NCBI GenBank assembly: GCA_018822665.1 | Contig: JAHJJX010000027.1 | Span: 434,001-498,000, forward strand | Length of the DNA stretch: 64,000 nucleotides | Reading direction: 5' to 3' | From: a bacterium | Lineage (GTDB): Bacteria > Campylobacterota > Campylobacteria > Campylobacterales > Sulfurimonadaceae | Shown here: positions 13,933-64,000 of the stretch, one piece after another | Layout of the letters: every line of letters begins with the position of its first letter | Numbering within the stretch: the first letter of the stretch is position 1 | Notes under the pieces: model-generated | Seen by the model: the letters and a program-made list of their open reading frames with translations, nothing else | Databases searched by the model: none | Told to the model about the DNA's origin: nothing | Made by a program: the position numbers and the translations under genes

Positions 13933-15070
<1,138 letters not shown>

Positions 15071-15166
15071 TTTTGGTTCCACATGCCAAGCTTGCTTCCA
15101 CATGCCAAGATGCTTCCACATGCCAAGATGCTTCCACATGCCAAGATGCTTCCACATGCCATCTAC
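15071..15166 (-). repeat. Tandem array of five GGCATGTGG words with 18-base period
   Basis: Five copies of the minus-strand word GGCATGTGG at 15079, 15098, 15116, 15134 and 15152 (plus-strand starts), spaced 19, 18, 18 and 18 bases. The unit on the plus strand is TGCTTCCACATGCCAAGA. The middle three units are identical. This is the only tandem arrangement of the word in the window and it lies between the nifH leader and the end of the peroxiredoxin gene. The unit is too short and lacks spacers for a CRISPR. Confidence 0.95.
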
Positions 15167-15175
15167 CATCCATCT

Positions 15176-15724
15176 TTAAACGGACATCCAATTTTCGTGA
15201 GTATGCCCTTTTTTCTTTTCACGCACTATCATTTGAATTGCCTCAATACAGGCATCGTAGTTCACTTCATCCACTATCTCCGAAACCAGTTCTTTATACG
15301 CCACTAAACCTTCTTTATCGATGACAAAAACAGCTCTTGCCAAACGGTCTTTTAACTTTCCTTCTGAAATAAGAAGCCCAAATTTTTTACCAAAATTACG
15401 CTCTTCGTCTATCACCAGTTCGGCACTGTCTATGCACTCTTTATTTTTATACTCTTTGACAAATTCAATATCATCCGTTGTGACCATGATTGTTGTCAGT
15501 TTTTTAAACTGCTTTACCAAATCATTAAATTTTTTAGCACCCAAAGAGCATACTTCTGTTTTTAATGAAGGAATCGCAATAATAAGTTGTGTATTTGGGG
15601 CAATCATTCCGATAACATTTTTAGTTTTGTCCAGTTTTGTAATACGTGCTGCCGGAGCCTCTTTACCCACCGACACCTCTTTGCCTATGAGTTGCGTAGT
15701 TGTTCCATGTACTGTTATTTTCAT
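15176..15724 (-). CDS. Tpx-like peroxiredoxin in the nif island
   Basis: A 182-residue cytoplasmic thiol peroxidase-like protein. The peroxidatic Cys is C59 in PSLKTEVC, compared with PSxDTPVC in E. coli Tpx; a second Cys at C97 (NKECIDS) is placed like the Tpx resolving cysteine. Overall order (VGKEAPAARI...APNTQLIIAIPSL...FNDLVKQF...RAVFVIDKEGLVAY) fits the Tpx branch of atypical 2-Cys peroxiredoxins. The C-terminus is longer, ending in KKKGHTHENWMSV. A sigma-54-like box 35 bases before the start suggests co-regulation with nif, and a role in removing peroxide near nitrogenase. Confidence 0.85.
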   Translation of the reverse strand: MKITVHGTTTQLIGKEVSVGKEAPAARITKLDKTKNVIGMIAPNTQLIIAIPSLKTEVCSLGAKKFNDLVKQFKKLTTIMVTTDDIEFVKEYKNKECIDSAELVIDEERNFGKKFGLLISEGKLKDRLARAVFVIDKEGLVAYKELVSEIVDEVNYDACIEAIQMIVREKKKGHTHENWMSV

Positions 15725-15876: not shown

Positions 15877-17514
15877 ATGTATAGTGAAATAAATATACCG
15901 AACAACGAAGAATGCAAAACCTGCGCGCTTACTTTTGCATATAATGAAATCAAAATTCTTTACGATATTGCCGTTATGCTCTTTAATAATTCACATGTTG
16001 ATGAGAGCATAGAAAAAGGGATGCGTTTGCTAAAGCGCAACTCTTATCTGGAACGTTGCAGTCTTTTTTTACTCTCTGATGACAAAAGCTCTGTGGAGAT
16101 GCACACATCGCTCGACATTACAACGCAACAAAGAAAAATGGCAGTGTATAAACTTGGAGAAGGAGCAACAGGTTTAGCCGCACAAAGTGCGGAACCCGTC
16201 GTGATAGAAAATATTCAAAACAATATCAACTACTTAAATAAAATGGGTATCGTAGATACAAAATCTATCTCTTATGTTGCCGTTCCGATTATTCAAGATG
16301 AAAATGTTTTTGGTGTTATTTCTGCAAATATAAATAAATCATCGGTGCTGGGTTTTGATGATATCGTAAGAATGCTTACGATTGTCGGCTCTTTATTTTG
16401 CGGAGCATTGGCAACACAAAAAAGATTTGTCAAAGAGAAAGAAAATCTTACAGATTTAAAAACATATTACAAAGAACAAGCGCTTAGTGATTACAAGTTT
16501 GAAAATATTGTTGGAAACAGTACAAAAATGCAAAGAATTTTCAGCTTGCTTGAAACCGTTTCCCCCTCAGATGCGACTATTTTGGTGCGAGGCGAAACAG
16601 GAACGGGCAAGGAGCTTATCGCAACAGCCGTACACAACCTCAGCAAGCGCAAAAATGGACCCTACATAAAACTCAATTGTGCGGCCATTAGTGAAACACT
16701 TTTGGAAAGTGAGCTTTTTGGTCACGAAAAAGGGGCATTTACAGATGCAAAAGAGATGCGTAAAGGAAGATTTGAACTAGCAGATGGCGGTACACTTTTT
16801 TTAGATGAGATTGGCGATATATCTTCTTCGCTACAGGTAAAACTTCTGAGAATTTTACAAGAGCAGGAGTTTGAAAGGGTTGGGGGAACAAAAACAGTAA
16901 AAACAAATGTCCGCCTTGTAGCGGCAACCAACCGCAATCTTGAGAGTATGGTCGCAAAAGGTGAATTTAGAGAAGACCTTTTTTATCGTCTGAATGTTAT
17001 CCCTGTTTTTCTTCCCCCTTTGAGAGAAAGATATGAGGATGTAAAACTTCTTATAGAACATTATCTTCACAAGTTTATGAAAGAACACCGCAAATCCATG
17101 AATTTCAGCAAACAGTCCTTGGAAATTTTACTCGATTATCCATGGCCGGGCAATATTCGTGAACTCCAAAATACAATGGAGAGAATTGTTCTTATATGCC
17201 CCGACGGTACCGTCGTACCTGAGATGTTAAACCATGTCTTACCCTTCAATTATCAAAAACTCTATATGGAGCCGACACCTCAAACAGCGGCAAAAACGGT
17301 TGAAGAAGCGATACCTGAGCAAAGCGTTCGCACAACGGTGCCTGCAAACAAAACACCGATGCTTACAAAAAGAAATATGCAAGATATGGAAAAAGAATCC
17401 ATTATGCAGGCTCTCATTGACAATCGAGGCATCCAAACAAAAGCTGCCGCACAACTAGGCATGACTGCAAGACAAATTGGATATAAAATTAAAAAATATG
17501 AGATTGAATTTTAG
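15877..17514 (+). CDS. nifA: NifA, sigma-54-dependent nif activator
   Basis: A 545-residue enhancer-binding protein. Residues ~25-180 form a GAF sensor domain; the AAA+ domain follows with Walker A GETGTGKE (239-246) and Walker B GTLFLDE (305-311); a Fis-type helix-turn-helix closes it (TKAAAQLGMTARQIGYKIKK). The sigma-54-contact loop reads GAFTDA (286-291), not the usual GAFTGA. There is a CxxC (C13, C16) before the GAF domain, and the C-X4-C linker motif of oxygen-sensitive rhizobial NifA is absent. It is divergent from the peroxiredoxin gene and convergent with nifT. With rpoN in the same island it very likely controls the nif operons. Confidence 0.92.
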   Translation: MYSEINIPNNEECKTCALTFAYNEIKILYDIAVMLFNNSHVDESIEKGMRLLKRNSYLERCSLFLLSDDKSSVEMHTSLDITTQQRKMAVYKLGEGATGLAAQSAEPVVIENIQNNINYLNKMGIVDTKSISYVAVPIIQDENVFGVISANINKSSVLGFDDIVRMLTIVGSLFCGALATQKRFVKEKENLTDLKTYYKEQALSDYKFENIVGNSTKMQRIFSLLETVSPSDATILVRGETGTGKELIATAVHNLSKRKNGPYIKLNCAAISETLLESELFGHEKGAFTDAKEMRKGRFELADGGTLFLDEIGDISSSLQVKLLRILQEQEFERVGGTKTVKTNVRLVAATNRNLESMVAKGEFREDLFYRLNVIPVFLPPLRERYEDVKLLIEHYLHKFMKEHRKSMNFSKQSLEILLDYPWPGNIRELQNTMERIVLICPDGTVVPEMLNHVLPFNYQKLYMEPTPQTAAKTVEEAIPEQSVRTTVPANKTPMLTKRNMQDMEKESIMQALIDNRGIQTKAAAQLGMTARQIGYKIKKYEIEF

Positions 17515-46821: not shown

Positions 46822-46861
46822 GTTTCGTTCCACATGCCGCGCGCGGCATGTGGAACGAAAC
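46822..46861. terminator. Perfect 40-bp palindrome built from two GGCATGTGG words
   Basis: GTTTCGTTCCACATGCCGCG (46822-46841) is followed directly by its exact reverse complement (46842-46861). It starts two bases after the GGDEF stop and ends 26 bases before the stop of the convergent mrp gene. The folded RNA would be a very stable hairpin, and on both strands the sequence continues with T/A-rich bases, so it would serve as a two-way terminator. Paired uptake words forming terminators are a hallmark of Neisseria and Haemophilus. Confidence 0.85.
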
Positions 46862-56141: not shown

Positions 56142-58037
56142 TTATATAACCGATACAGTTGTAACACTTGCCAACTCTTGCAAAGCATTTATCTTGTCGT
56201 TATCATCTGCGAAACAGCCGTCTTTTAGAACGACTTGGTAGGGTTTGAGTTTTTTTATCTCTTGGATGGCAGCTTGTGAGATAGTGTCTTCAAGACATGC
56301 TATGAGTTCGTTGTTTTCTAGCAGGTAGAGTTTTGTGCCCTCCACTGTTTGGGGTGTTATTTTGAGTGAAAGCTCTATGCCGAGGTCGAGCATTATTTGA
56401 AACAGCAAATCTAGGTCGGTTCTCTCTTCTTTGATATTTGTTTGAAAGTCAAAAATATCTTTTTGTGTAAGATTGTTTGGATGATAATAAACATCTTTGA
56501 AATTTGTGGTGTCGAGTCTTAGAACTCTAAAGCCGATGTCAAGATTGCCGTCATTGCGAGGCTTTGCCGAAGCAATCTTCATTTCGTCGTTGCGAGGCTT
56601 TGCCGAAGCAATCTCTTGTGTTATTTTAGCTCCCGCACGGCGGATTCTCTCTTTGCCTATCTCACAAATATTTTTATATCCCGCCTTGAAAGCCTCACTT
56701 TTTTCATCGGTCGCTTCAGGGAGTTGCACCATGATAAACTTACGATTTCCGCCATCTTCAGAGTTTAGTTGCATGACGGCATGTGCGGTTGTGGCTGAAC
56801 CGCTGAAGAAGTCGAGGATTATTTCATTGTCATTGTTTTGGAGATGAAATAATAGTTTTTTGATTAATGTCGTAGGTTTTACTGTTTCAAAATCATGTTC
56901 TTTTGTGTCAAGTGTTTCCGATAATTCCGTTTTTCCTGTTTCTGCCGTTCCGTAAGCTTCTTTATTAAAAAAATGAGACCAAAAAGGATAATACTTTTTT
57001 ATATCTTCATCTTCTGGTCGTATTTTGAAAAAAACCTTATTATCAATTCTAACAATATCATTTCTCAGTAAGAATTCATTAATAGTATCTTGTCCAACTT
57101 TCCATTGTTTATTCTCATTTGGCAAAATTCCTAAAATTGGATATATCATGGTAGCTCGTCCTCTCATACCTAGAGCAGACATTTCCTCTATCAATTTATA
57201 TCTAAATACACCTCTTTCATCGTCCAAGTCATAATTTTTATTACCAGACACCTCTAAATTAAATCTAATTTTATTTATATTTTTTTTGTAAGTTAATATA
57301 TATTCTGTTTTAGATTGAAACATATTTTTTGCATCAAGAGTATTTTGTGCTTTGGTTCGTTTTTCCCAAGTAATATTCCCTACAAAATTCCCTTCCCCAA
57401 AAACCTCATCACAAATCTTTCTCAAATTGTGCACTTCGTTATCATCTATGCTTATAAAAATTACCCCATCCTCTTTGAGTAAATCCCTCGCCACCAAAAG
57501 CCTTTCATACATCATGCTCAGCCAGTCGCTATGAAATCTTCCGTTGCTGTCCGTGTTTTTAAAGAGTTTGTTTCCCTCTTCATCTCTCATTCTAATCGCA
57601 TCTTCAAAATCTGCTTTACTTTGCGTAAAGTTGTCACGGTAAACAAAATCTTTGCCCGTGTTATACGGCGGGTCGATGTAAATCATCTTGATTTTGTTTA
57701 AGTAACTCTCACTTAAAAGCTTCAACACTTCAAAGTTATCGCCCTCGATGTAGAGATTTTGCGTGTTCTCAAAATCGACACTCTCATTTACGCATGGGCG
57801 CAGGGTTTTATTTATACTGCTGTTTGCTTTGAGAAGTGAGGCTTTTTTACCCACCCAGTCAAGGCGGTATCGCTCCTCATCGCCCTCGACTATACTCTCG
57901 CTGAGTATTTGTCTGAGCAAATCAAAATCTATTTTACTTTCACTCACGGCATGTGGAAATAGCTCCTTGAGTATTTCCACATGCCGATTAGTTTTGTTTG
58001 GTGTTTGCATCTCTAATTTTTTAATCTTTTGCATCAT
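56142..58037 (-). CDS. Type III methyltransferase (Mod) of the second system, with in-frame repeat insert
   Basis: A 631-residue beta-class adenine methyltransferase. Motif IV is IDPPYNTG (121-128); motif I is DFFSGSATTAHAV near residue 405-415; the AT-rich recognition segment lies between. At about residues 475-497 two tandem copies of a ~30-base repeat add IASAKPRND twice, just before the family segment LDIGFRVLRLD. Two GGCATGTGG words in inverted order (57948, 57977) form a 14-bp stem within the first 40 codons. It overlaps the DUF4391 gene by 17 bases. Confidence 0.9.
   Translation of the reverse strand: MMQKIKKLEMQTPNKTNRHVEILKELFPHAVSESKIDFDLLRQILSESIVEGDEERYRLDWVGKKASLLKANSSINKTLRPCVNESVDFENTQNLYIEGDNFEVLKLLSESYLNKIKMIYIDPPYNTGKDFVYRDNFTQSKADFEDAIRMRDEEGNKLFKNTDSNGRFHSDWLSMMYERLLVARDLLKEDGVIFISIDDNEVHNLRKICDEVFGEGNFVGNITWEKRTKAQNTLDAKNMFQSKTEYILTYKKNINKIRFNLEVSGNKNYDLDDERGVFRYKLIEEMSALGMRGRATMIYPILGILPNENKQWKVGQDTINEFLLRNDIVRIDNKVFFKIRPEDEDIKKYYPFWSHFFNKEAYGTAETGKTELSETLDTKEHDFETVKPTTLIKKLLFHLQNNDNEIILDFFSGSATTAHAVMQLNSEDGGNRKFIMVQLPEATDEKSEAFKAGYKNICEIGKERIRRAGAKITQEIASAKPRNDEMKIASAKPRNDGNLDIGFRVLRLDTTNFKDVYYHPNNLTQKDIFDFQTNIKEERTDLDLLFQIMLDLGIELSLKITPQTVEGTKLYLLENNELIACLEDTISQAAIQEIKKLKPYQVVLKDGCFADDNDKINALQELASVTTVSVI
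56549..56614 (-). repeat. Two tandem copies of a dispersed-type repeat inside mod
   Basis: Plus-strand copies at 56549-56578 and 56585-56614, 36 bases (12 codons) apart and differing at one base. Each reads CGTCATTGCGAGGC then TTTGCCGAAGCAATCT. Words of the kind GTCATTGCGAGG...GAAGCAATC are widespread intergenic repeats in many bacteria. Here the frame is kept, as with Rickettsia palindromic elements that sit within genes. Confidence 0.85.
57948..57985. repeat. Inverted pair of GGCATGTGG words inside mod
   Basis: GGCATGTGGAAATA (57948-57961) and TATTTCCACATGCC (57972-57985) form a perfect 14-bp stem with a 10-base loop. The gene reads them as RHVE and PHA. It would give a strong hairpin near the 5' end of the mod message. 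Confidence 0.85.
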
Positions 58038-63512: not shown

Positions 63513-64000
63513 TTATCCTTGTATAGCTTTATACGCTTTATTTGTTAGTTTTTCAATTATATCGTCGTAACTTGTATAGCTAACACCAAGCTCACTCGCC
63601 CTTGTCTTGAGTGCGGAATACTCTTTTTCATTTTTCATGTCAAAATTAAAAACCGGCAGTTTGGTAATCATAGCTAAATTATTCATATTTGAAAAGTCTA
63701 AAACTGCCTCAAAATGAGACAACTCAGAATCCATACCACTTGATAAACGGTTTAAATCAGCATCTTTTAATTCTACCTCATTACTAAAGAGCATAAGCCC
63801 TTCAAGGTTGTCATTAAAGTAACTCACTTCAAATCCACATGCCAAGAATGAAAAAGCTTTGGCATGTGGAGTTGTTCCTAGGAGTGCTATTTTAGAAATA
63901 TTTAAATCTTTTAAATACTCAAGCAATACTCTCATGCCGTAGATATCACCTCTGAGCTTTTCACCCTCGCGAAACACGATATCGCACATACCGCTTCTTT
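63513..64000 (-). CDS. AroE-like (shikimate dehydrogenase-type) protein, C-terminal part
   Basis: The frame is open to the window edge, so the true start lies outside; an internal ATG at 63989 is not needed. The visible ~162 residues look like the second, nucleotide-binding half of a shikimate-dehydrogenase-type protein: CDIVFREGEKLRGDIYGMRV, then IALLGTTPHAKAFSFLACGF (a Rossmann turn lacking the full GxGxxG) and LDFSNMNNLAM. The weak Rossmann motif makes enzymatic assignment uncertain. Two inverted GGCATGTGG words lie inside (63835, 63861). Confidence 0.5.
   Translation of the reverse strand, partial: RSGMCDIVFREGEKLRGDIYGMRVLLEYLKDLNISKIALLGTTPHAKAFSFLACGFEVSYFNDNLEGLMLFSNEVELKDADLNRLSSGMDSELSHFEAVLDFSNMNNLAMITKLPVFNFDMKNEKEYSALKTRASELGVSYTSYDDIIEKLTNKAYKAIQG
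63834..63870. repeat. Inverted pair of GGCATGTGG words inside the AroE-like gene
   Basis: TCCACATGCCAA (63834-63845) and TTGGCATGTGGA (63859-63870) form a perfect 12-bp stem with a 13-base loop. The gene reads them as ACG and PHA. With the pairs at 46830/46845 and 57948/57977 this is the third inverted pair in the window. Confidence 0.85.

Follow-up and report, generated by a model that had tools for sequence, protein, structure and literature searches.

The uptake sequences known as DUS in the Neisseriaceae and as USS in the Pasteurellaceae are the closest described counterparts of the 10-mer TCCACATGCC, which is dispersed through the genome of a bacterium of the Sulfurimonadaceae and which, at one place on the nifH side of a thiol-peroxidase-like gene, forms a regular tandem array. 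Eight dialects of the Neisseriaceae DUS are described in PMC3630211, very over-represented 10-12-mers that are found on both strands, are lineage-specific and form inverted pairs; neisserial DUS and genome evolution are the subject of PMC2397512. In these two papers the term "tandem" does not occur, and direct tandem arrays are not mentioned under it. TCCACATGCC shares the listed features of the DUS, but it is a different word, its host belongs to another phylum, the Campylobacterota, and its uptake role and receptor are putative. It also resembles the Pasteurellaceae USS in its hundreds of copies, both intragenic and intergenic. The USS of H. influenzae has A/T-rich flanks, unlike the present word, whose profile in a 464-kb sample of the host genome is aNTTCCACATGCC[A/G]AG without extended flank. 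This sample consists of the window, i.e. the whole 64,000-nucleotide stretch that was analyzed, and 20 further stretches.

The hallmarks of uptake sequences are evident in the host genome (G000), where TCCACATGCC is present in 859 copies in 2.5 Mb, balanced between the strands (437/422), against 0 and 2 by strand for the reversed control. It is the most over-represented 10-mer of the 464-kb sample, with 171 copies vs 12 expected, and shows an intergenic excess: 124 of these words lie inside ORFs of at least 100 aa and 47 outside, while such ORFs make up 88% of the sample. Neighboring words no more than 45 bp apart form inverted pairs 11 times in the sample, 8 of them intergenic, where an arithmetic estimate from the density gives ~1.4. 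Three inverted pairs of the window, at 46828-46855, 57947-57986 and 63833-63871, are possible two-word terminators. A flank duplication suggesting insertion was not clearly present, outside the array, at any of the 171 words of the 464 kb; the word itself is thus not an insertion element, and its spread as a very small mobile element that duplicates its target is ruled out.

The distribution of TCCACATGCC is limited to a lineage. Among 398 genomes sampled across the order, counts above 11 were found only in G000, G105 (887), G119 (1302) and G041 (71), all of this genus, and across 100 genomes of the genus at least 100 copies were found in 8, 31-71 in 4 and 13 or fewer in the rest. A ComEC-type protein (PF03772) is encoded by 23 of the 24 genomes tested, G000 included, and word-poor genomes also have it. 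When mapped on a tree of ComEC from 23 genomes, in which G106 and G115 were entered as word-rich on the basis of word triplets and not of counts, the word-rich label (at least 100 copies) needs 2 changes, whereas shuffled labels average 7.8 and in none of 500 shuffles was the number as low. From the word statistics and the likeness to DUS and USS we infer an uptake function for TCCACATGCC, which probably serves as the own-DNA label for DNA uptake in this species. Literature searches covering Sulfurimonas, Epsilonproteobacteria, Campylobacterota and Campylobacter yielded no description of a word of this kind from the phylum, and with it own-DNA marking would therefore be known from sulfur-oxidizing, nitrogen-fixing bacteria as well. 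Two points are new here: a Campylobacterota word with the character of an uptake sequence, and the repeated appearance of 18-bp arrays built on it.

In its anatomy the array resembles the bacterial minisatellites (VNTR loci), with short identical units head to tail and degenerate ends; it differs from these in having a genome-wide word as the basis of its unit, and this word forms arrays with other spacers at many loci. Five TTCCACATGCC(A) words occupy positions 15077-15161 of the + strand and start at 15077, 15096, 15114, 15132 and 15150, at spacings of 19, 18, 18 and 18. The first unit, of 19 bp, has the variant spacer AAGCTTGC (15077-15095); three identical 18-bp units TTCCACATGCCAAGATGC follow (15096-15149), and the final word (15150-15161) is without a further spacer copy. 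The first-pass annotation, which proposed five copies in a near-constant 18-bp period with three identical units, was correct in both respects and had the array in the right place, although its limits of 15071-15166 were slightly too wide. Tandem Repeats Finder returns the same interval with period 18, 4.7 copies, 97% matches and a score of 154, and it is the strongest tandem array of the window. With up to 2 mismatches TTCCACATGCCA has 37 matches in the window, where shuffled sequence averages 4.9, CACATGCCA occurs 21 times against 0.32 in shuffles, and the genome density predicts 0.03 words in 85 nt. A CRISPR array, which would have different spacers between its repeats, is ruled out by the identical or near-identical spacers seen here.

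The array is located between nifH (13933-14841, - strand; TIGR01287, above cut-off), with nifD and nifK beyond it on the far side, and the thiol-peroxidase-like gene (15176-15724, - strand; NCBIfam matches below cut-off), which has its 3' end toward the array and its stop codon 14 nt from the array end. A NifA-like activator gene (TIGR01817, 508 bits against a cut-off of 529) follows at 15877-17514 on the + strand. When 14842-15320 was compared by BLAST with 135 genomes of the genus, the homology of the nifH leader in 13 relatives all ended at base 15029, and in one further relative it spanned 14984 to 15038. The conserved leader block is thus 14842-15029 (- strand), and the array, which begins 236 bp away from the start of nifH and 47 bp beyond this block, lies outside the conserved leader and not, as had been supposed, in the nifH leader region. 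Wherever both the leader and the peroxidase-like gene were found in relatives by BLAST they were on different contigs. On the peroxidase side 17 loci were compared, of which L262 and L266 gave no tblastn match; the 14 other rows not from this genome, two of them for the same place, represent 13 relatives, and neither the word nor the nifH leader was found in their sequence just past the peroxidase-like gene, one of these stretches being only ~50 nt long. On these grounds the junction of nifH leader and peroxidase-like gene looks private to this genome among the relatives examined. Of the 80 fetched loci, 17 from named relatives were examined, and the word is missing upstream of nifH in all of them; in six word-bearing relatives a single word is found in one, an inverted pair in one and neither in four, and an array is absent from the 17 and the six alike. 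No plasmid records resembling the region were found.

Arrays of the word recur elsewhere in the genus, and closely spaced tandem runs of at least three words are present in 7 of the 135 genomes. A 12-base pattern search gave 29 matches, several of which are single matches within unrelated sequence. The spacer of the regular arrays is locus-specific and the unit mostly 18 bp: G106 has an array of 16 words with spacer AAGATATT and a second of about nine units with GTGATGTT, G087 one of five words with AACCCAAA, G105 one of period 18 with GGGTTGAT and another of period 17 with AAACATT, G045 one with AAGTTATT, and G119 one of period 16 with ACAACTT. Some of these repeats are translated. In the linker of dnaX (DNA polymerase III gamma/tau) word pairs or arrays of periods 18, 18 and 15 encode VPHAKE-type repeats in three genomes (L176:1950-2032 of this genome, G000:C32, with spacer AAAGAAGT in the host array; L187; L117), and a three-word array of G087:C42 (L179:2050-2105) encodes FPHAK repeats in the leader of a prepilin-like (PilV/GspI-type) protein. 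Relatives of the zeta, YafQ and TumE toxins, a C5 methylase and a Y1 transposase are encoded near some arrays, and 14 array loci gave no match to a known RNA family. Same-strand words with 0-30 bp between them were surveyed in 12 genomes, and the 73 places found were reduced to 64 loci by merging by hand those of the same array. The period is exactly 18 bp at 13 of the 64, against 0.66 expected per distance, and periods of 15 and 16 bp are represented by 6 loci each; with two probable homologous pairs collapsed, 11 of 62 loci have the 18-bp period (P = 4e-6 relative to an even spread, before correction for the choice of distance). The near-perfect non-word arrays listed for the 464-kb host sample have units of 9-15 bp, and 18 is therefore not the default unit.

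REP elements and their RAYT transposases offer a further comparison, in that hairpin elements stand beside some word arrays in relatives. The element, of ~53 nt, has the form TCATAGTCT...GTGAAnnnnTTCAC...AGCCGTCTCATGCC and in several cases is flanked by the same spacer as the neighboring array; loci with it are L334 (G106:C8), L333 (G106:C18), L335, L336 and L184-L186. A stricter form of the hairpin pattern is found in 11 of the 135 genomes, chiefly word-bearing ones, and in this genome once, at G000:C41:107219-107248, far from the window. The likeness to REP/RAYT ends there, since no hairpin element was seen at the window array and the transposase tested does not track the word: with the one Y1 transposase found beside an array as query, homologues were present in 65 of the 135 genomes, word-poor ones included, and a RAYT transposase is ruled out as the cause by this distribution. 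At L333, L183 and L335 two consecutive AT-rich hairpins of similar design are found to the left of the array, one with a DNA fold z of -2.44.

The account favored here, and with reasonable confidence, is that the uptake-like word was duplicated locally and expanded by strand slippage, and that selection for nifH expression played no part. One copy of TCCACATGCC in the interval that separates the nifH leader from the thiol-peroxidase-like gene would have been duplicated together with 7-8 bp of its neighborhood to give the 18-bp unit, and slipped-strand mispairing would have expanded this unit to five words. The result would be a small minisatellite of the uptake-like word, likely contributing at most redundant binding sites for a putative uptake receptor, and we infer that the array is probably neutral for nifH. 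Identical inner units between degenerate ends, the same behavior of the word with other spacers at unrelated loci, and the absence of an array upstream of nifH in the relatives examined are together best fitted by local duplication and then slippage, so that the earlier suggestion of slipped-strand expansion from one dispersed copy is borne out as the best-fitting mechanism. Plain slippage, however, does not predict one preferred unit length, and the 18-bp preference is left over. A dedicated process that recognizes the word and copies it with its flank in ~18-bp steps, slippage being secondary, would draw on that preference, seen at 13 of 64 loci with locus-specific spacers, on the 9-15 bp units of the listed non-word arrays, and on the hairpin elements next to several of the relatives' arrays, with which they have spacers in common; another process may thus act at those arrays. 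It is nevertheless unlikely, as no enzyme is tied to it, the widespread Y1 transposase included, 15- and 16-bp pairs are also enriched, and the window array has no such hairpin element in view. Equally doubtful is the wider proposition that the uptake-like word, in one group of Sulfurimonas-type genomes, also seeds tandem amplification, preferably in steps of ~18 bp: the word with 8 bp of local flank would be copied in head-to-tail order at numerous loci, in some cases next to shared hairpin elements. If true, it would point to an enzyme that recognizes the word or to word pairs being selected at this spacing, e.g. by a multimeric uptake receptor. Tandem arrays of an uptake-like word with a preferred 18-bp unit would constitute a natural record of how uptake words originate and multiply, one that is testable in long-read data.

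Duplication and slippage must also be set against readings in which the array has a function where it stands, or in which it is not real. That the array binds a protein and so regulates nifH, the peroxidase-like gene or the nifA-like gene is suggested by its position between nifH and the peroxidase-like gene and near the nifA-like gene, and by four occurrences of a loose GG-N10-GC pattern on the nifH sense strand of the 335-nt spacer against ~0.6 expected, these being due to the repeat, which carries the pattern. Neither a NifA site (TGT-N10-ACA) nor a strict sigma-54 match (TGGC(A/G)-N7-TTGC) is present on that strand of the spacer, the leader homology of 13 relatives ends 47 bp short of the array, the 17 named and six word-bearing relatives have no array there, and similar arrays are found in the dnaX linker, in a prepilin leader and beside toxin genes. 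A regulatory binding site is accordingly very unlikely, and the regulatory or structural role for the nitrogenase genes entertained in the first-pass annotation is not supported, nif regulation as the main reading being ruled out by the leader homology, the pattern scans, the promoter and terminator scan and the folding. Still less probable is a role of the array as a terminator, or as an RNA structure, downstream of the peroxidase-like gene: it does start 14 nt after the stop of that gene, and pairs of inverted words that lie at the ends of other genes could act as terminators, but the five words of the array are all in one direction and so form no stem among them, the fold z-scores are an ordinary -0.27 and -0.01 on the two strands, and the scan gave no promoter or terminator above chance in the array region. 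The smallest probability of all is assigned to an array that is an assembly artefact or due to chance. Repeats are prone to mis-assembly and some arrays in relatives are at contig ends, but this array is interior to a 521-kb contig and its end units are variant; five words by chance are excluded by the shuffle counts and the word density.

The arrays at contig ends are L338, L339 and L340 of G105 and L181 of G087; they are probably longer than assembled, and three of the four share boundary sequence around GATCTGGCTA / TAGCCAGAT. Two word-poor relatives have over-represented palindromic words of their own with an ACATG core, TACATGTAA in G093 (39 sites in 100 kb; L369-L373) and CTACATGTA in G060 (19 sites in 100 kb; L374-L378), and these may be dialects of the uptake word. 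No over-represented word with this core was found in the relative G061, and in G099 (L379-L383) a different over-represented word family is centered on AAACGCA(A/G)C.
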